Assembly (NCBI GenBank): GCA_945281075.1 | Contig: CALYQE010000051.1 | Coordinates: 1-11,717 of the forward strand | Direction of reading: 5' to 3' | Source of the DNA: an uncultured Lactobacillus sp. | Lineage (GTDB): Bacteria > Bacillota > Bacilli > Lactobacillales > Lactobacillaceae | Length of the DNA stretch: 11,717 nt | Shown: positions 2,884 to 11,566 of the stretch, one piece after another | Layout of the letters: the number at the start of each line of letters is the position of its first letter | Numbering within the stretch: position 1 is the stretch's first letter | The notes under the pieces: model-generated | Told to the model about the DNA's origin: nothing | Database searches by the model: none | Seen by the model: the letters and a program-made list of their open reading frames with translations, nothing else | Translations under genes and position numbers: made by a program

Positions 2884-2915
2884 AAAAAGACTGAGGAATT
2901 TTCCTCAGCCTTTTT
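2884..2915. terminator. bidirectional terminator between permease and regulator
   Basis: The stem CTGAGGA (2891-2897) / TCCTCAG (2902-2908) with loop ATTT is flanked by AAAAAG on the left and CTTTTT on the right, so it has a T-run in both directions. It serves the convergent permease and regulator genes and overlaps the regulator's TAA stop at 2914-2916. Confidence 0.85.
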
Positions 2916-4650
2916 ATTTCAGGTAACGCCATAACGTTGCCCGACTTATGTCTAATTGTTTGGCCGTCTTGGTTTTGTTGCCCCTATTTTCTTTTAAGAC
3001 CTGCTTAATTTCTTGCACAATAATATCATGCAGGTTCAATTTGGTGTAGTTAGTCGCTTTCTTTTTGTTCAAAATTTGCGGTTTTGACTTTTCAGCAGTT
3101 GCGAATTGGCGAAGAATATCTGCAATATCTTTTCCTCTGAGAATAGGTCCGCTTGAAGTAGCAAGTGCAGTAGTTAATACGTTGATAAATTCACGGTAAT
3201 TTTGTGGCCAAGGATAGCTTGACAGTTGATCGAGTGCAGTATCCGAAACACCAGAAAAAGTTTTACCTGTTTTTAAACTGAAATCGTTTAGTATTGAGTG
3301 TACTAACTGGTTAAAAATTTCATAAGACATTTCGCTTAAAGGCTTCAAGAAGAGATGGTTAACATTCAAAGAATCAGGAAAGACAACACTAAGTTTAGTG
3401 CCATAGGGCTGATCAATTAAAAAAACAAGCTTGTTTCTGCTAGCTAAGTTAGACTCATGGATAAAATCGAAAAGGTCAAGTTGATCATTCTGACTCAACT
3501 TTTCAATCCCGGAAAGTTGAATAAGGTGGTGATTTTCAAAAAAAGGGGAATTGGTATTGGTAATGGCCTTGTGAATTTCTTCGTGATTAGACAATGTGAG
3601 TAGAATTGGTTTAAGTTTTTGATTTCGAATTCTGCGAACAATCAAGGAACATAGATATTCCTTTGCAAGGCCTTCTTCACCAACTAAGCAGAGTGGAGTT
3701 GCAAGGTCTGAATAATAATCTAAAAGTTTAAAAAAGTGTTTATCATAGCAAATCGAATAAATAGAAGAAATATATTCAAAATCATATTCGGGTACCCGAT
3801 TTTGTTGGGACAGCTGTCCAAGGTTATCAATCATAACAATTGAAAAAGATTTGGTTTGTTTAACTAGCATATGCCAAGAAGAGTCATCAAAAGCTAGAAT
3901 CTGCTTATGTTCACTTAAAGCCTTACGAATTTTTTGTGCAAGGCTATCGGCCTTCTTTTTGTTAGTACTAAATAGAATATTAAAGTAATTACCTTTTTCA
4001 AAAAAAAGCGTGTAATCATGAAAAGATTTGAGTGACTCAGAAAGCAGGGAAAAGTAATTTACGTTTTTTTGTTTTTCTTTAAGTAAAAAAAAGCAGGTTT
4101 TAAGTGCCTGGGTTACCACTTCGTCCCCAGACTCGATTAGGTAGGAATTAAAGTGGTGGATATTGTTGGAAGTCAAAATGATTCCTGAATCACAGAGAAC
4201 ATTGTTGTAACCCATAGTTGATAACCTATTCATGGCTTTATTAATATCAATTTTCTTTTTTACGACAAATTTTTTCATCTTAATATTAAATTGAGCTAAT
4301 GTTTCAGTAATCGCCTGGTTGAAGGCATCGTAGCAAATAATTGCGGTCTTATTGGGGTCAGGGATATTTCTAATTGTTCGAATGATATCATATTGAGAAA
4401 TGCCAATGTCAATCACGGGTGCATTGGTTTGCCCCTTAAGAAAATCAAAGGTACCACCGCGAGAAAGTAGCAAGTCAAAGTAATTATTTTTGACTAGGTT
4501 GCTCAGTTTCCGCTTATTTGCCATGTTTGCTAGCTCGATTTGAATTTTAACATTCAGTTCAGGATTTCTTTTTGTCATTTTCTTAAAGGAATACTCAATT
4601 TTGTTTTTTAGTCCAGGATAAGGGACAATACAAAGAATTTTAGCAGTCAT
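2914..4650 (-). CDS. PrpR-type transcriptional regulator with eroded AAA+ domain
   Basis: This 578-residue protein has three parts. The N-terminal PrpR_N sensor domain (about 1-190) shows LLSRGGTFDFLK (61-72) and PVIDIGISQYDIIRTI (78-93); in PrpR itself this domain senses 2-methylcitrate, and relatives sense other acids. The central region (about 310-500) aligns with sigma-54 activator AAA+ modules: a Walker-A-like GEEGLAKEYLC (324-334) and YPWPQNYREFINVLTTA (479-495, matching the usual WPGNVREL.N). The GAFTGA loop and a clean DE Walker B are not seen. The C-terminus (about 540-578) is a Fis-type helix-turn-helix, NRGNKTKTAKQLDISRATLW. The start has AAGGAGG five bases upstream. It lies divergent from the catabolic operon and is probably its local regulator, acting with sigma-A RNA polymerase. 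The effector is unknown. Confidence 0.8.
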   Translation of the reverse strand: MTAKILCIVPYPGLKNKIEYSFKKMTKRNPELNVKIQIELANMANKRKLSNLVKNNYFDLLLSRGGTFDFLKGQTNAPVIDIGISQYDIIRTIRNIPDPNKTAIICYDAFNQAITETLAQFNIKMKKFVVKKKIDINKAMNRLSTMGYNNVLCDSGIILTSNNIHHFNSYLIESGDEVVTQALKTCFFLLKEKQKNVNYFSLLSESLKSFHDYTLFFEKGNYFNILFSTNKKKADSLAQKIRKALSEHKQILAFDDSSWHMLVKQTKSFSIVMIDNLGQLSQQNRVPEYDFEYISSIYSICYDKHFFKLLDYYSDLATPLCLVGEEGLAKEYLCSLIVRRIRNQKLKPILLTLSNHEEIHKAITNTNSPFFENHHLIQLSGIEKLSQNDQLDLFDFIHESNLASRNKLVFLIDQPYGTKLSVVFPDSLNVNHLFLKPLSEMSYEIFNQLVHSILNDFSLKTGKTFSGVSDTALDQLSSYPWPQNYREFINVLTTALATSSGPILRGKDIADILRQFATAEKSKPQILNKKKATNYTKLNLHDIIVQEIKQVLKENRGNKTKTAKQLDISRATLWRYLK

Positions 4651-4812: not shown

Positions 4813-6069
4813 ATGAGTAAATTTCTGATAATTGCTGATGATTTTACTGGTGCTAACGATACTGGGGTGAAGCTGACAGAAGAAGGTATGCCAGTAAACG
4901 TCTTTTTTTCGGCATTTAATATTGTCCCTAATATTTCTTGCGTACTTGATACCGAAACAAGAAATGATTCGGAAAAAGCAGCTTACGAAAAAGTCAAAAC
5001 AATCTTGAATTCGGTTGATATTAATCAGTTTGACTTTATTTATAAAAAGATCGATTCAACTTTAAGAGGAAATATTATCCCAGAGATTAAGGCAATAAGT
5101 GAGTGCTTTTTACCTGATTATATTGTTTTTGCTCCGGCATTACCAGCTCTTGGAAGGCAAGTGATGAATAAAAGACTGCTTGTTAATGGTATTGAATTGA
5201 AAAAAACAGAATTTGCTCACGATCCGATTAAGCCGGTAAAAATAGATAATATTGAATCAATTTTAACGAAGTATTTTGGCGCAAATAACGTTCAGTATTA
5301 TTCACTTCGAGATTTAAGAAATAATCTTGAACTTGATTTGAGTAAAAAATGCTTTGGTTTTGATACAGAAAATGATGATGATCTTGGCCACATTACCACT
5401 CTTTTTCATAATCTTAGGGGCAAGATTTTATGGGTCGGTTCATCAGGCTTGATTGAAGGCATGGTTAAGAAAAATAAATCCAGTGCGCCTGCCATTGCCT
5501 TAGTTGGAAGCGTTAGTAACAAAACACGAAAACAGATTTTGTATGCAAAGGAAAATGGATTGGAAATTATTTCGTTACCTATTTATGAAATATATAAGTC
5601 AGAGGATTATTCAAGTTATGTCGATCAGGCTCTTCACGTTCTAAAAAGCGGCAAGAACCTGGCTTTAGTTTCTTCAGCTTCGCTTGAGCGAGCAAATCTG
5701 AAGAAAACTAGAATGCAGTTTAAGGTCGCTGGCTTTAGTAAGTCTGAAATGGAAGAAATTGTGCAAAGAACTCTTGCAGGCATTTGTCGTAGGGTTGTTA
5801 AAAAATTTCCTGTTTCTGGTCTATTTGTTACTGGAGGGGCGACTGCACAGAATATTTTACGGATGGTCAAAGCACAGGGAACGGTGATTAAAGAAGAGGT
5901 TGCACTGGGGATGCCGTTGTTGACAATTACTGGAGGAGAATTCGACGGGATTAATATGATTTCTAAGGCTGGTGCTTTTGGAGACCCTAGTTTGATTATG
6001 TTTGGTTTGAATAAATTGCGTACTTTAGGAAAGAAGAAGGGAATGTCATGGAATTGCAGGAAAGCTTAA
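4813..6069 (+). CDS. four-carbon acid sugar kinase (DUF1537 family)
   Basis: This 418-residue protein is of the DUF1537 kinase family, ATP-dependent kinases of threonate, erythronate and related acid sugars (DtnK, OtnK, DenK, LtnK types). The N-terminal substrate domain shows IIADDFTGANDTG (6-18), KKIDSTLRGN (78-87) and PALPALGR (108-115); the C-terminal nucleotide domain shows VGSVSNKTRKQI (231-242), VTGGATAQNIL (339-349), ITGGEFDG (372-379) and SKAGAFGD (384-391). The length is typical of the family. A near-perfect AGGAGGTG lies five bases before the ATG. It is the first gene of the operon, and its end overlaps the next gene by 22 bases. With the PdxA-family gene in the same operon it matches the DtnK-PdxA2 pair that converts D-threonate to dihydroxyacetone phosphate. 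The family is secure; substrate stereochemistry is not. Confidence 0.9.
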   Translation: MSKFLIIADDFTGANDTGVKLTEEGMPVNVFFSAFNIVPNISCVLDTETRNDSEKAAYEKVKTILNSVDINQFDFIYKKIDSTLRGNIIPEIKAISECFLPDYIVFAPALPALGRQVMNKRLLVNGIELKKTEFAHDPIKPVKIDNIESILTKYFGANNVQYYSLRDLRNNLELDLSKKCFGFDTENDDDLGHITTLFHNLRGKILWVGSSGLIEGMVKKNKSSAPAIALVGSVSNKTRKQILYAKENGLEIISLPIYEIYKSEDYSSYVDQALHVLKSGKNLALVSSASLERANLKKTRMQFKVAGFSKSEMEEIVQRTLAGICRRVVKKFPVSGLFVTGGATAQNILRMVKAQGTVIKEEVALGMPLLTITGGEFDGINMISKAGAFGDPSLIMFGLNKLRTLGKKKGMSWNCRKA

Positions 6070-7199
6070 CTGCTAACTTTGAAAAAACAATGCTGTTGCC
6101 AAATACGGGGATACAAAGTCATGCATCTAATCTGTTGTTATTAGCTAATGGTGATACTTTGTGCACCTGGTTTTCAGGAACAGAAGAAGGCAAAGCTGAT
6201 ATTACAATTTTTTTGTCACGAATGAAAAAGGATAAAAATTCTTGGTCAAAGCCAGTGAAGATGTCCGATAACCCTGGCCGTTCAGACCAGAATCCCGTAT
6301 TATTCAAGGCACCAAGCGGCGATATATGGTTGCTTTATACTTCCCAGGATGGTGGCAATGAAGATACTGCAATCATTCAGTATAGGGTTTCACATGATGA
6401 GGGGCAAACGTGGAGTAAGCAAAGCAACCTTTTTCCGGGTGAAACTGGACTGTTCATACGTCATCCTTTAGTTGTTACTGACAAGGGAGAATGGCTTCTA
6501 CCCCTTTACCACTGCATAGTGAAAAATGATGGAAAGCCTTGGGATGGGACCTATGATTATAGTTGCGTACGAGTCTCAGCAGATGAAGGCCAAACATGGA
6601 AAGAACATGACATACCAAATAGTCAGGGTTGCGTGCAAATGAGTGTCGTTAAACTGCTCAATCAAAGAGGCTATGTCGGATTCTTTAGGAGTCGTTGGGC
6701 AGACTATGTTTACCGCTCTTTTTCAGAAAATGGCATTAACTGGACGACACCAAAGGCAACGAACCTGCCTAACAATAATTCTTCTATTCAAGCTGCTCTG
6801 TTACCAGATGGCAACCTGATTTTGGCCTTTAATAAATCCAGCGCAAAAGATACCAAAGTCAGGAGACTGTCACTATTTTCAGATGAAACCGAGGCAAAGG
6901 ATGCACCGAACAAAAAGCAAAGAAAAGTGGCCTTCTGGGGTGCGCCACGGGCACCAATGACAGTTGCAATTTCAGAAGACGAAGGTAAAACTTGGCCGTA
7001 TATTAGAAATATCGCTGAAGGAAGTGGCTATGCATTGACCAATAATTCAAAAGATAAAAAGAATAAAGAATTTTCATATCCGTCAGTTAAGCCAACCATG
7101 GACGGCAAAATTGACTTAACTTTTACTTATTACAGACAAAATATTGCTTTTGTTGAACTAACTGAAGACTGGATCAAAGAAGGAAAGGAAGTATATTGA
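6048..7199 (+). CDS. cytoplasmic BNR/sialidase-like beta-propeller protein
   Basis: This 383-residue protein has four Asp-box (BNR) repeats: SHDEGQTW (115-122), SADEGQTW (177-184), SFSENGINW (224-232, degenerate) and SEDEGKTW (309-316), indicating a sialidase-type six-bladed propeller (BNR_2-like). Other striking motifs are SHASNLLLLANGDTL (24-38), RSDQNPVLF (78-86), IRHPLV (137-142) and FFRSRW (212-217). No signal peptide is present and the canonical N-terminal RIP motif of sialidases is not seen, so it likely acts inside the cell on a small imported molecule. Genuine exo-sialidase activity is doubtful because no sialic acid catabolic genes accompany it. The start at 6048 has AAGGG six bases upstream and overlaps the kinase gene, indicating translational coupling. 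A hydrolase or lyase role on a glycosylated or cyclic acid is inferred; the reaction is unknown. Confidence 0.75.
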   Translation: MELQESLTANFEKTMLLPNTGIQSHASNLLLLANGDTLCTWFSGTEEGKADITIFLSRMKKDKNSWSKPVKMSDNPGRSDQNPVLFKAPSGDIWLLYTSQDGGNEDTAIIQYRVSHDEGQTWSKQSNLFPGETGLFIRHPLVVTDKGEWLLPLYHCIVKNDGKPWDGTYDYSCVRVSADEGQTWKEHDIPNSQGCVQMSVVKLLNQRGYVGFFRSRWADYVYRSFSENGINWTTPKATNLPNNNSSIQAALLPDGNLILAFNKSSAKDTKVRRLSLFSDETEAKDAPNKKQRKVAFWGAPRAPMTVAISEDEGKTWPYIRNIAEGSGYALTNNSKDKKNKEFSYPSVKPTMDGKIDLTFTYYRQNIAFVELTEDWIKEGKEVY

Positions 7200-7200
7200 T

Positions 7201-8358
7201 ATGGCAGAAACAGCGTTTTTAAAACTACCCCAAAGGGTATATTTAGGTAAAGGCCTGCTGGATGATTTAGGCGCATTTCTCAAAACGAGGAAAAATACCA
7301 ATGTCTTGCTTTTTACAGACGAAGGTCTGCTAAAAGCAGGGCTGGTTCAGCCATTGAAAGATTACTTAGAAGAAAACAAGATTCAATATCATATTGAAGC
7401 GGAAATTAAGCCAGAGCCAAGCTATGTGCAAGTTGATGAACTTTTTCAAAAGGTAAGCAAGTTTGAATTCAGTACTATCATCGCAATCGGTGGCGGCTCG
7501 GTTATGGATGCGGCGAAATTAATTTCGCTCTTACTACATACTAAGATAAGCGTTAAGGATTTGATTAACAACCCTACAAAAGCGCAGAAGCATTGCGCAA
7601 CGGTTTTTATCCCGACTACAGCTGGGACCGGATCGGAGGCAACTATCAACGCAATAGTCAGTATTCCAGAAAAGCAAGTTAAATTCGGAATAGTTTCCGA
7701 AGCAATGCTTCCGGATTTGGTGCTACTGGATGTTAATAACGTCAAGAATTTACCGAAGGCAATTCTTGCTTCATCCGCGATCGATGCTTTGAGTCATTGC
7801 ATTGAATGCTTTACTGCTAAGAATGCAACGATAATGAGCAATGGGGTTGCACTTCTAGGAGCTAAACTGATTTTTAAAAATGTTATACAGGCCTATCAGA
7901 ATCCTTCAGATATTAAGGCCCGTGAAGCTCTGCAACTAGGTGCTTTTTATGGCGGTGTAGCAATTACCGCATCGGGGACCAACATTGTCCATGCTTTGTC
8001 ATATCCGCTAGGTGGCAAGTTTCATATTGCACATGGCGTTGCTAATGCAATTTTATTTAAAGCGGGTATGGAAACCAATAAGCCAGCTATCAAAAATCGT
8101 TTAGCTATTTTATGTGATAATATTTGGCCCGAAGAGGGCAGCAAAACTACTGATGAAAAGGCTGACTTTGTAATTGATAAGATTGCACAAGTTGTTAAAG
8201 ACACGGAAATTCCAACTGATCTAAGGAAATTTGGCGTTAAAAATTCAGACTTGAATTTTTTGACCAATTCTGCTTTAGAACAAAAGCGTCTTCTTAGTCA
8301 TAATATGAAAAAACTGTCCCGAGCAGATGTCTTAAATGTATATAAGTCAGTTATGTAG
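7201..8358 (+). CDS. iron-containing (group III) alcohol dehydrogenase
   Basis: This 385-residue NAD(P)-dependent dehydrogenase belongs to the Fe-ADH family (FucO, EutG and glycerol dehydrogenase relatives). The nucleotide motif GGGSVMDAAK is at 97-106 and PTTAGTGSEAT at 138-148. All four metal ligands of the family appear present: D195 and H199 in DALSHCIE, H264 in VHALSYPLGG, and H278 in HGVAN. It begins one base after the preceding stop, with an AGGAAAGGAA ribosome site inside the end of that gene, so it is tightly coupled. In this operon it could reduce an aldehyde released by the aldolase, or oxidise an alcohol to feed the pathway. The direction and substrate cannot be read from the sequence. 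Confidence 0.88.
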   Translation: MAETAFLKLPQRVYLGKGLLDDLGAFLKTRKNTNVLLFTDEGLLKAGLVQPLKDYLEENKIQYHIEAEIKPEPSYVQVDELFQKVSKFEFSTIIAIGGGSVMDAAKLISLLLHTKISVKDLINNPTKAQKHCATVFIPTTAGTGSEATINAIVSIPEKQVKFGIVSEAMLPDLVLLDVNNVKNLPKAILASSAIDALSHCIECFTAKNATIMSNGVALLGAKLIFKNVIQAYQNPSDIKAREALQLGAFYGGVAITASGTNIVHALSYPLGGKFHIAHGVANAILFKAGMETNKPAIKNRLAILCDNIWPEEGSKTTDEKADFVIDKIAQVVKDTEIPTDLRKFGVKNSDLNFLTNSALEQKRLLSHNMKKLSRADVLNVYKSVM

Positions 8359-8377
8359 TTTTGAGAGGAGTTTTAAA

Positions 8378-9280
8378 ATGAGCAAGCCAAAAATAGCACA
8401 TGGCATTATTGCCGCAATGATTACCCCAATGGATGATGAAGGAAATGTCGACTTTAAGGAGATGAGAAATCAGGTTGATCGTCAAATTGCTGCTGGTATT
8501 AGTGGAGTCTTTACTCTGGGTACGAATGGTGAAGGATATATTCTTGATCATGATGAAAAGTTGAAGGTAATGAAAGCAGTCATTGAAGAAGCTGATCACC
8601 GTGTTCCGGTGTATGTGGGAACAGGCTGTGTTTCAACAACTGAGACAATTGAATTATCAAAACAGGCTGAACAACTAGGTGCAGATGCATTATCAGTAAT
8701 TACCCCTTGGTTTGCCCAAGCATCACAAGAAGATCTATATAAGCATTACAAGGCATTAAATGACGTCATAGGCATTCCAATTTTGCTTTATAATATCCCA
8801 GCTCGTAGTGGCAACTCTTTGGCACCACAAACTGTAGCACGACTGGCCGATTTGCCAAATATTGCTGGCATTAAGGATTCAAGTGGCAACTTTGATAATA
8901 TACTGCAGTATATTGAATTGACTCGTAACAAGAATTTCGCAGTTATTTCGGGTAATGATTCATTAATTTTGTGGACACTGAAGGCTGGTGGCACTGGCGG
9001 AATTGCTGCCTGTGCTAATGTTTTACCGGAAATTATGGTTTCGATTTACAAGTATTATCAAAATGGTGACTGGGAAAAAGCCCAAAGAGCCCAAGATTCT
9101 ATTCGTCCGTTCAGAAACTGCTTTAAATTAGGAAACCCTAATACGATTGTAAAAATGGCAACCGATTTGATGGGCTTTCCAGTAGGAATGCCACGTGCTC
9201 CGTTTAATAGCTTGCCGGATAGGGTAGTTCAAACTGTTCAAAAAACTTTGGATAAGTATTATAGCGAGTATAAAAAGTAA
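8378..9280 (+). CDS. DapA/NanA-superfamily class I aldolase
   Basis: This 300-residue TIM-barrel protein belongs to the dihydrodipicolinate synthase / N-acetylneuraminate lyase superfamily. Visible are GTNGEG (48-53), catalytic Tyr138 in YNIPARSG (138-145), Schiff-base Lys166 in GIKDSSG (164-170), and SGNDSLILWTLKAGGTGGIA (191-210). Such enzymes form or split a pyruvate-derived keto acid. Arg143 after YNIPA recalls DapA and keto-deoxy-acid aldolases, while NanA usually has a non-Arg residue there. No lysine-pathway genes are nearby, so a biosynthetic DapA role is unlikely. A catabolic aldolase giving pyruvate plus an aldehyde is inferred. The ATG at 8378 is chosen because GAGAGGAG lies seven bases upstream; the frame is open further upstream to 8336, but that would overlap the previous gene without a ribosome site. 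Confidence 0.85.
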   Translation: MSKPKIAHGIIAAMITPMDDEGNVDFKEMRNQVDRQIAAGISGVFTLGTNGEGYILDHDEKLKVMKAVIEEADHRVPVYVGTGCVSTTETIELSKQAEQLGADALSVITPWFAQASQEDLYKHYKALNDVIGIPILLYNIPARSGNSLAPQTVARLADLPNIAGIKDSSGNFDNILQYIELTRNKNFAVISGNDSLILWTLKAGGTGGIAACANVLPEIMVSIYKYYQNGDWEKAQRAQDSIRPFRNCFKLGNPNTIVKMATDLMGFPVGMPRAPFNSLPDRVVQTVQKTLDKYYSEYKK

Positions 9281-9301
9281 TTATTGAAAGGAGATAAACT
9301 G

Positions 9302-10333
9302 ATGAATAGACCAATTGTTGGGATTACAATGGGAGACCCTGCAAGTATAGGACCAGAAATTTCACTGAAAGTTTTTCGAAGCAAAAAACTTTATCAGAAA
9401 TGTCATCCTTTATTAGTTGGTGACGGCAATGTGCTTGAAAAGGTAATGGAAAAGCTGCCTGACCGCAGACTTAAGCTTAATCAAATTATGAATGTAAAAG
9501 ATGCTAAGTTTGAATTTGGTACGATAGATGTTTATGATTTGCACGAGGTTGATATTGATCGACTTAAATTTGGCAAAGTTAGCAAAATGGCTGGTAATGC
9601 CGCTTTTCAGTATGTTAAAAAGGTAATTGAGCTGGCTAATAATCGCGAAATCGATGCGACTGTTACTAACGCCCTGAATAAAGAGGCGATGAACTTGGCT
9701 GGACACCATTACGCTGGACACACTGAAATTTATGGCAAATTTACCAATACACCGAATTACACAATGATGCTAGCACATGGGAATCTACGTGTAGTCCATG
9801 TATCAACGCACGTTTCTTTGCGTAAAGCTTGTGATATGGTTAAAAAAACTAGAATTGAAAATTGCATTTATTTGGCTGATAAAGTATGTCGTAACTTAGG
9901 AATTGCTAGTCCAAGAGTAGCAGTTGCAGGCTTAAATCCACATGCGGGTGAAGATGGTCTATTTGGTGATGAAGAGATAAAGGAAATTATACCGGCAGTT
10001 AAAGCAATGCAAGCAAAGGGAATTAATGTTGAAGGGCCAATACCAGCGGATACAGTTTTTGCAAAGTGTCTTGGTGGTATGTATGACATTGCTGTTGCAA
10101 TGTATCACGATCAGGGTCATATTCCCGTTAAAATAATCGGTTTTCAGTATGACGAAAAAAAGAAAAAATGGGATAGTGTTGCAGGAATTAACGTAACACT
10201 TGGTTTGCCAATAATTAGAACTTCTGTCGATCATGGAACGGCTTTTGATCAGGTGCTCAAAGGCACAGCTAATGAAGTAAGTTTAAAAAATGCAATTGAT
10301 TATGCAATCAAGTTATCAGAAAATAAACAGTAG
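9302..10333 (+). CDS. PdxA-family 4-phosphate-hydroxyacid dehydrogenase (PdxA2-like)
   Basis: This 343-residue NAD-dependent enzyme is of the PdxA family. PdxA oxidises and decarboxylates 4-hydroxythreonine 4-phosphate; the PdxA2 branch does the same with D-threonate 4-phosphate, giving dihydroxyacetone phosphate and CO2. Motifs: ITMGDPASIGPEI (8-20), GHTE (139-142, substrate-phosphate region) and the three expected metal histidines, H170 in STHVSLR, H214 in GLNPHAGEDG and H269 in YHDQGH, then LGLPIIRTSVDHGTAFD (300-316). Ser15 replaces the usual Gly of GDPAGIGPE. GAAAGGAGA lies seven bases before the ATG at 9302; an upstream in-frame TTG at 9284 overlaps that site and is rejected. It is last in an operon led by an acid sugar kinase, and no other vitamin B6 gene is present, which favours the catabolic PdxA2 role. 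Confidence 0.88.
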   Translation: MNRPIVGITMGDPASIGPEISLKVFRSKKLYQKCHPLLVGDGNVLEKVMEKLPDRRLKLNQIMNVKDAKFEFGTIDVYDLHEVDIDRLKFGKVSKMAGNAAFQYVKKVIELANNREIDATVTNALNKEAMNLAGHHYAGHTEIYGKFTNTPNYTMMLAHGNLRVVHVSTHVSLRKACDMVKKTRIENCIYLADKVCRNLGIASPRVAVAGLNPHAGEDGLFGDEEIKEIIPAVKAMQAKGINVEGPIPADTVFAKCLGGMYDIAVAMYHDQGHIPVKIIGFQYDEKKKKWDSVAGINVTLGLPIIRTSVDHGTAFDQVLKGTANEVSLKNAIDYAIKLSENKQ

Positions 10334-10873: not shown

Positions 10874-11566
10874 ATGTTAAATTTATCAGATAAGGAATTA
10901 GCAGCAAAAATTCAACACACGAATGTTAATCCAGAGCTTACTCCAGAAGACATTAAAAGCTTATGTGATGATTGCAAGCACTTTGGCTTTAATGGCGTTA
11001 TGATTCAGCCACAATGGGTTAACCTTGCTAGAAAAGAACTTGCGGGAACTAATGTTCAGGTTGCTACGTGTATGAGTTTTCCTATGGGTGCTCAAAAAAC
11101 CGAAGTGAAAATCTTTGAAGCAGAGAAATGCTTTGAAGATGGTGCCGACCAGCTTGACTGGATGCCTAATGTTGGATTCTTAAAAGCCGGTATGTATGAT
11201 GAGTATCAAAATGAAGTAGCAGCAGTTGTTAAAGCAGCCAAAGGCAAGGTTGTTAAAATTATGTTGGAATTTGGTATGTTGACTCGGGATGAAAAAATCA
11301 TGGCGGCAAAACTATCAAGAGATGCTGGTGCAACTTATCTTAAGAATTCAAGCGGCTGGGGCAAAGGCGGTCATGCAACTATTGATGACATTCAGCTGTT
11401 AAAACGAATTGCGGGCGACAAGTGCTTAGTAAAAGCTTCTGGTGGTATTCGAAATCGTCAACAGGCATTATCACTGCTTGAAGCTGGTGCGTCGCTTTTG
11501 GGAACAAGTGCTGGTCCACAAATTATTACTGGCGAGAAAAGAGAAGATAGATCTATAGCAGATTAG
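10874..11566 (+). CDS. DeoC-like class I aldolase (DERA family)
   Basis: This 230-residue TIM-barrel protein belongs to the deoxyribose-phosphate aldolase family, which splits 2-deoxyribose 5-phosphate into acetaldehyde and glyceraldehyde 3-phosphate. The catalytic residues appear conserved: Asp95 in QLDWMPNVG (93-101), Schiff-base Lys157 in YLKNSSGWG (155-163) and Lys187 in VKASGGIR (186-193). The surroundings differ from common DeoC, which usually reads close to EIDMVIN and KTSTGF, so the substrate may differ. AAAGGCGG lies six bases before the ATG. It has its own promoter, cre site and possible operator, and is followed by a GntR-type regulator rather than by nucleoside genes (deoB, deoD, pdp), which argues against a plain deoxynucleoside role. 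It could serve the acid sugar pathway or be an independent unit. Confidence 0.8.
   Translation: MLNLSDKELAAKIQHTNVNPELTPEDIKSLCDDCKHFGFNGVMIQPQWVNLARKELAGTNVQVATCMSFPMGAQKTEVKIFEAEKCFEDGADQLDWMPNVGFLKAGMYDEYQNEVAAVVKAAKGKVVKIMLEFGMLTRDEKIMAAKLSRDAGATYLKNSSGWGKGGHATIDDIQLLKRIAGDKCLVKASGGIRNRQQALSLLEAGASLLGTSAGPQIITGEKREDRSIAD

Follow-up and report, generated by a model that had tools for sequence, protein, structure and literature searches.

What acid is broken down by a Lactobacillus operon in which a four-carbon acid sugar kinase and a PdxA-type oxidative decarboxylase are encoded together with a sialidase-like propeller, an aldolase and an iron-type alcohol dehydrogenase (Fe-ADH)? The operon lies at positions 4813-10333 of an 11,717-nucleotide stretch of DNA (hereafter the window) that is the entire contig C51 of a draft Lactobacillus genome (a metagenome-assembled genome, MAG; 1.84 Mb in 188 contigs, completeness 76%, contamination 3.25%). 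The gene set is one conserved module whose recurrence goes beyond chance. We hold it probable that its products release pyruvate and a four-carbon semialdehyde acid and convert the latter via a tetronate to dihydroxyacetone phosphate (DHAP). The reading that we prefer, which we judge to have close to an even chance, is that the operon would serve the catabolism of a seven-carbon 2-keto-3-deoxy diacid, the substrate being Dha (3-deoxy-D-lyxo-2-heptulosaric acid, a sugar from the side chains of the pectin rhamnogalacturonan II, RG-II) or a small Dha ketoside.

A conserved five-gene unit

Five open reading frames (ORFs) run through this interval in one direction, so tightly packed that neighbours overlap or almost touch; the ORF list bears out the original prediction in this respect, and the five families that it named all score above their Pfam cut-offs. 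All on the forward strand, they encode a DUF1537 four-carbon acid sugar kinase of 418 residues (4813-6069; PF07005/PF17042, nearest model D-threonate kinase), a sialidase-fold BNR_2 propeller of 383 residues (6048-7199; no signal peptide by eye), a 385-residue Fe-ADH (7201-8358; PF00465/PF25137), a DHDPS-family class I aldolase (8336-9280; PF00701, 267.4 bits) and a PdxA2-type NAD-dependent oxidative decarboxylase (9284-10333; PF04166, 350.7 bits). Because ribosome-binding-site-like sequences are found there, the aldolase probably starts at ATG 8378 and the PdxA protein at ATG 9302.

Relatives of the propeller were sought in overlapping sets of 75 genus, 395 order, 398 class and 398 phylum genomes and in a plasmid collection. 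They were found in 3 of the 75 genus genomes (its own included), 6 of the 395 from the order and 11 of the 398 from the class, and in 312 plasmid records at 315 places; with the E. coli propeller as query, 15 of the 398 phylum genomes gave matches. Neighbourhoods were read at 16 of the 315 plasmid places, in E. coli UTI89, and around the genus, order and class matches except the weak ones in G164, G256, G283 and G775; the matches added by the phylum search, which are weak throughout (E 5.5e-27 or worse), lie outside this set. From it we took the 26 loci at which the propeller reaches 230 bits or more, a threshold drawn after the scores had been seen, and since the plasmid places were picked from hit lists, the figures that follow are not population frequencies.

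The original prediction depended on the five families occurring together in other genomes, and they do so. A DHDPS-family gene lies within about 8 kb of the propeller at all 26 loci, and all four partners (kinase, Fe-ADH, aldolase and PdxA) do at 22, the kinase match being weak (69-92 bits) at four of these (L036, L034, L043 and L089). The full set is lacking at L023, L090 and L092, which have the aldolase only, and at L035, which has no kinase; a further 10 kb on each side of L023 held no partner. At five loci with more distant propellers (105-140 bits), kinase, PdxA and Fe-ADH are all missing, and a weak DHDPS hit is present at one. The set of five recurs in Bacilli and Proteobacteria, and pairwise distances correlate between families for all ten family pairs (r 0.50-0.85; none of 999 permutations as high; 19 five-gene loci, with L022, L036 and L034 omitted as near-duplicate or weak), a correlation to which shared host ancestry by itself contributes. 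For this comparison whole open frames were aligned, and a fused Cupriavidus ORF was entered for both kinase and PdxA.

The Pantoea plasmid clusters (L035 and L036) have the kinase missing or present only as a fragment in the stretch read, and L037 (CP125156.1), filed as a 5.37 Mb plasmid, is almost certainly a Klebsiella chromosome, on which the propeller reads in two pieces.

An aldolase with a far-carboxylate arginine

DHDPS joins pyruvate to a four-carbon semialdehyde acid, aspartate semialdehyde (ASA), to give an adduct of the 2-oxo-4-hydroxy-heptanedioate type, and Dha is a 2-oxo-heptanedioate with three hydroxyl groups. The window aldolase has a GTNGE motif and, numbered as in E. coli DapA, Phe107, Tyr133, Arg138 and Lys161. 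Lys161 and Tyr133 are kept in every one of the 26 cluster aldolases, Phe107 in 21, and Arg138 and Asn45 in 19 each (one gap at the latter position). Position 138 is Leu in E. coli NanA and YagE; a KDG-type aldolase was considered and rejected because YagE carries this Leu. Arg138 of DHDPS is described as binding the carboxylate of ASA, which becomes C7 of the pyruvate-ASA complex, and the same column is given as Leu in NanA and Asn in HOGA (PMC5380162, PMC11201819, PMC3188589). Since ASA is itself a four-carbon semialdehyde acid, the pocket for the proposed product looks to be retained.

The DapA proton relay, described as Thr44-Tyr107-Tyr133, is not intact: the window aldolase and 21 of the 26 have Phe in place of Tyr107. 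Judged by alignment, the catalytic lysine and the arginine for the far carboxylate are mostly retained in the cluster aldolase, but Tyr107 of the DHDPS relay has been lost. The window aldolase passes the DapA model TIGR00674 (237.8 bits, cut-off 206.15), which neither the E. coli cluster aldolase (189.9) nor the Agrobacterium fabrum member (198.3) reaches. It falls far below the nanA model TIGR00683 (139.7 vs 382 bits) and has Arg at the column of NanA Leu142. Elsewhere in the MAG, contig C40 holds a DHDPS-type gene, cut by the contig end, that looks like its genuine DapA.

Stereochemistry and the four-carbon branch

If a 3-deoxy-2-heptulosarate is split at its C3-C4 bond by retro-aldol cleavage and the aldehyde is then reduced, two of the eight stereoisomers, D-lyxo and D-xylo, yield D-threonate. 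The Dha of RG-II is described as having the D-lyxo configuration, and it is because this isomer yields D-threonate and because 19 of 26 aldolases keep Arg138 that we regard Dha as the best-fitting sugar. The E. coli UTI89 cluster encodes a kinase that passes the D-threonate kinase model NF047819 (535 vs 450 bits) and a PdxA that passes the D-threonate-4-phosphate dehydrogenase model NF002891 (681.6 vs 583 bits). The window proteins miss both cut-offs, so that for Lactobacillus the assignment of D-threonate depends on the module being shared.

For the Fe-ADH the best NCBIfam model is lactaldehyde reductase, TIGR02638, whose cut-off it does not reach (231.9 vs 523.15 bits). The original prediction had cast this enzyme as a redox balancer; we think it more likely that it stands in the main line, and propose that it would reduce the four-carbon semialdehyde acid to D-threonate.

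Arrangements of the kinase and PdxA genes vary beyond the window. The Cupriavidus sp. KK10 fusion (L089:7413-9770) places the DUF1537 kinase and PdxA in one open frame of 786 residues, and MAG contig C124 (L021:386-4943) has a separate DeoR-PdxA-kinase-GntP-like operon that looks like an ordinary tetronate route.

A sialidase fold with an altered active site

A predicted model of the propeller has the sialidase fold in Foldseek and VIA-align comparisons. In the GH33 active site a Tyr and a Glu act as the nucleophile pair; Tyr344 is invariant in the propeller family, and the Glu column, placed by sequence alignment to pneumococcal NanB, is His in 43 of 48 sequences and Gln in the other 5. The propeller therefore lacks the GH33 Glu, and its step is uncertain; it is a probable cytoplasmic ketosidase or a related enzyme acting on a ring or ketoside. 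BT_1020 was not among the best 50 matches listed by either Foldseek or VIA-align, which has no bearing on kinship.

The propeller is homologous (24% identity, pairwise E 3e-23) to the BNR_2 part of a rhamnosidase-BNR_2 fusion protein from Bacteroides finegoldii (L042:2226-6092; this locus stands outside the partner table). The fusion gene belongs to an RG-II-type locus, where it adjoins a GH140 gene and has a BT_1020-like gene some 9 kb away. Its BNR_2 domain carries Gln in the column of the GH33 Glu and, on this alignment, may share the altered chemistry of the cluster propeller.

A candidate route for Dha

From gene content, conservation of the unit, the predicted fold, active-site residues and stereochemical consistency, all of them observed, we infer each reaction and the substrate of the following route, in which the propeller step is the weakest link. 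A permease would import the anion, and the sialidase-fold protein would free or open the substrate, most likely by ketoside hydrolysis, while a YhcH-type protein would speed ring opening. The DHDPS-type aldolase would then cut between C3 and C4 to give pyruvate and 2,3-dihydroxy-4-oxobutanoate, whose aldehyde the Fe-ADH would reduce to D-threonate. Phosphorylation by the DUF1537 kinase would give D-threonate 4-phosphate, and oxidation and decarboxylation by PdxA2 would yield DHAP and CO2, so that the net yield would be pyruvate and DHAP. The YhcH-type protein and the anion permease would suit a diacid that forms a ring. The order propeller, aldolase, kinase and PdxA, which the original prediction had proposed, fits the aldolase residues and the conserved partners; the role of the Fe-ADH and the extent of the operon differ from that proposal. 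More tentatively, and somewhat short of even odds, this may be the first bacterial pathway for Dha, in which an aldolase of the lysine-biosynthetic DHDPS lineage would give pyruvate and D-threuronate, and the latter D-threonate 4-phosphate and DHAP, after the action of a sialidase-fold enzyme with a non-GH33 active site.

Several observations weigh against the assignment to Dha. The window kinase scores 243.9 bits on NF047819 (cut-off 450) and the window PdxA 340 on NF002891 (cut-off 583), and the YhcH-type protein is likewise under the cut-off of its equivalog, the NanQ N-acetylneuraminate anomerase model NF040884 (76.3 vs 160 bits). Because the propeller is without the GH33 Glu, ketoside hydrolysis is uncertain, and since a carrier of the SLC13 type is expected to import the free acid and not a disaccharide, the propeller is left without a clear task. 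Its similarity to a BT_1020-like protein, the known type of Dha hydrolase, is marginal (E 0.003), and the pairing of the related fusion domain with a rhamnosidase would suit the Kdo chain better than Dha. The window contains no RG-II hydrolase. Arg138 is absent from six aldolases (Roseomonas, Methylobacterium, R. beringeri, S. fredii, Pseudoroseomonas and Streptomyces), which look like members of other DHDPS subfamilies, and the Cupriavidus aldolase has Lys there; non-orthologous replacement, the sole explanation that we offer for aldolases lacking this Arg, would have to cover them. Nor is Arg138 alone a marker of the cluster, because a DHDPS-family paralogue on MAG contig C112 also has it.

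The same chain might act on another seven-carbon 2-keto-3-deoxy diacid or a conjugate of one, with the propeller performing the conjugate-specific step. The D-xylo isomer would likewise give D-threonate, the module is widespread beyond obvious pectin degraders, and the carriers beside the cluster vary (SLC13-type, SSS, a TTT-type binding protein, Opp-type and other ABC transporters), a variation that may reflect different conjugates. We know of no other natural seven-carbon ulosaric acid, and consider this option somewhat unlikely. Quite unlikely, in our estimate, is a pair of linked jobs, in which the kinase and PdxA2 would use free D-threonate while propeller, aldolase and Fe-ADH would deal with an unrelated 2-keto-3-deoxy acid, its aldehyde being reduced and discarded like lactaldehyde. 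The retention of all four partners at 22 of 26 loci and the correlated family distances argue against such a division, as does the arginine, since a lactaldehyde-type product would need none for a C7 carboxylate; speaking for it are the lactaldehyde reductase model as the closest to the Fe-ADH, the propeller and aldolase found without kinase, PdxA or Fe-ADH in the stretches read from G180, Streptomyces and Pseudoroseomonas, and the separate operon on contig C124. Sialic acid or Kdo catabolism, with the propeller as a true sialidase or Kdo hydrolase, has in its favour the sialidase fold, the NanA/DapA-family aldolase, YhcH and the kinship with the rhamnosidase-fused propeller of the RG-II-type locus. 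Retro-aldol cleavage of sialic acid or Kdo gives ManNAc or arabinose, however, products that would leave the kinase and PdxA2 without a role; with Arg in 19 of 26 cluster aldolases where NanA has Leu, and no GH33 Glu in the propeller, we find this explanation highly improbable.

Variants and plant-linked neighbours

In genome G180 the same type of aldolase and the propeller are accompanied not by kinase, PdxA and Fe-ADH but by an ABC importer and a class I fumarase/tartrate-dehydratase pair. This arrangement could be an alternative exit of the four-carbon product via tartrate, if the aldehyde is oxidised; it counts against this that the alpha subunit scores best as fumarate hydratase (417.3, cut-off 276) and reaches only 189 of the 365 bits set for L(+)-tartrate dehydratase alpha. 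A propeller fragment, an aldolase and a fumarase/tartrate-dehydratase pair lie beside the intact propeller at L023 (6020-9072), possibly an alternative exit for the four-carbon product.

Also speaking for Dha, Agrobacterium fabrum has next to the cluster an ABC-transporter operon that contains a GH127 (beta-L-arabinofuranosidase) gene, at a distance of about 6 kb; beta-L-Araf on Dha is how chain D of RG-II is described. RG-II is reported from pollen tube walls and Kdo from pollen walls (PMC12168206), an occurrence that would suit a bee-gut host.

The E. coli cluster and related systems

The cluster of E. coli UTI89 lies between nagE and glnS and has the same seven gene kinds with a different regulator: an SLC13 permease, YhcH, a sialidase-family protein, a frameshifted TerC gene, a DHDPS-family protein, Fe-ADH, D-threonate kinase, D-threonate 4-phosphate dehydrogenase and a DeoR regulator. 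The same cluster, again between nagE and glnS, is listed as the uncharacterised genomic region 6 of E. coli BEN2908, with a CitT-like permease, a NanQ-like protein, COG4692, DapA, Fe-ADH, OtnK, PdxA and a GlpR-type regulator; the passages on it note a similar cluster in Sinorhizobium meliloti, tie the kinase/PdxA pair to PLP synthesis and give no pathway (PMC12928451). The suggestion that the set is an undescribed pathway thus holds in part: the genes are already in print, and we found no pathway assigned to them. Among the open-licence papers listed by our searches, none dealt with bacterial Dha catabolism as far as its title or the opening of its abstract shows, and none named three or more of the five families together.

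D-threonate catabolism by DtnK and PdxA2, reportedly described by Zhang et al. in 2016, shares the pair of kinase and oxidative decarboxylase, and the E. coli cluster members pass its equivalog models; the cluster differs in adding the aldolase, Fe-ADH, propeller, YhcH and anion permease, and the window members fall below the cut-offs. The glucarate/galactarate route, with the KDGluc aldolase GarL, the tartronate semialdehyde reductase GarR and the glycerate kinase GarK, likewise runs from retro-aldol cleavage to pyruvate and a semialdehyde acid, reduction and phosphorylation, one carbon shorter than the route proposed here; it employs other enzyme families, and the window operon has no dehydratase. 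Sialic acid catabolism (nanA-nanT-nanE-nanK-nanQ; K-12 region read), which sialidases feed in other bacteria, resembles the cluster in its DHDPS-fold aldolase and YhcH-type anomerase, whereas the cluster has Arg138 instead of Leu, a tetronate branch instead of a ManNAc branch, and an altered propeller active site. In RG-II degradation by Bacteroides, too, a sialidase-like propeller (BT_1020, GH142/GH143 Dha hydrolase) acts on the ketoside of a 3-deoxy ulosaric acid, but five blades and an intact Tyr-Glu pair are described for that propeller (PMC7263609, PMC6811678).

Although functionally unassigned in the literature searched, the unit is present in nitrogen-fixing and plant-associated bacteria, in bee-related Lactobacillus and in E. 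coli, where a 9 kb stretch of UTI89 is matched in 1044 of 5426 complete genomes (1043 over at least 80% of its length). If the Dha reading is true, it would explain what becomes of one of the rarest sugars in pectin, and a family often annotated 'exo-alpha-sialidase' would gain a function, such annotations then not necessarily meaning host sialic acid. RG-II turnover in plants, pollen and diet would also be linked to bee-gut lactobacilli, rhizobia and about one-fifth of complete E. coli genomes.

Genes that accompany the unit

The five genes form a unit, as first proposed, but one wider than 4813-10333. On the reverse strand at 800-1279 lies a YhcH/YjgK/YiaL-family protein of 159 residues (PF04074, 100.5 bits; TIGR00022, 80.5, cut-off 45.5), a probable anomerase opening the ring of an ulosonic-type acid, whose gene also neighbours the cluster in L. 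helsingborgensis, MAG contig C36, G082, G641, E. coli, Klebsiella and Pantoea. The forward gene at 1509-2813, probably starting at ATG 1527, encodes a CitMHS/SLC13-type anion permease (PF03600, 78.6 bits, cut-off 31.9; below the DASS cut-off, 72.5 vs 198.6 bits), the probable importer of the acid; SLC13-type permeases accompany the E. coli cluster and L025, L052, L053 and L054, the latter four being 56-76% identical to that of E. coli.

Divergent from the operon, on the reverse strand at 2914-4650, is a regulator with PrpR_N, AAA lid and Fis-HTH domain matches, and homologues adjoin the cluster in L007, L020, L022, L051, L052, L024 and L025. Because the Sigma54_activat core is absent from its domain matches and no sigma-54 DNA-binding domain was found in the MAG (76% complete), it is probably not a classical sigma-54 activator, and may belong to an activator family that left sigma-54 control. 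YhcH, permease and PrpR-like gene all accompany the cluster in Lactobacillus loci, and the other Lactobacillales loci read have at least one of them; in E. coli the cluster comes with YhcH and an SLC13-type permease, and all eight genes are shared with L. helsingborgensis and contig C36.

DeoC (10874-11566) was rejected as a core gene: it lies 540 bases downstream in the window, and it follows PdxA in L007 and contig C36 and at none of the other clusters inspected for it. In L. helsingborgensis DeoC is followed by a GntR/UTRA gene and genes that are PTS-like by eye.

Source genome and nearest relatives

Counts of promoters and terminators in the window are not above those in shuffles, no Rfam match there reaches its gathering score, and the cre-like site at 1483-1498 can be put down to chance, a search that tolerated one mismatch giving 2 hits where 1.47 are expected. 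The closest named propeller is that of Lactobacillus sp. XV13L (85% identity, protein only); the nearest named species with readable DNA is L. helsingborgensis (81%), a honey-bee gut species, and a propeller 76% identical is on record from Lactobacillus crispatus, outside the bee lineage. The MAG itself has a second copy of the whole cluster on contig C36 (L020:154-11052), with 79-84% DNA identity to the window across four aligned blocks. Only one ribosomal protein L2 gene was found in the MAG, and the second copy may be a paralogue or come from a second Lactobacillus strain in the bin.

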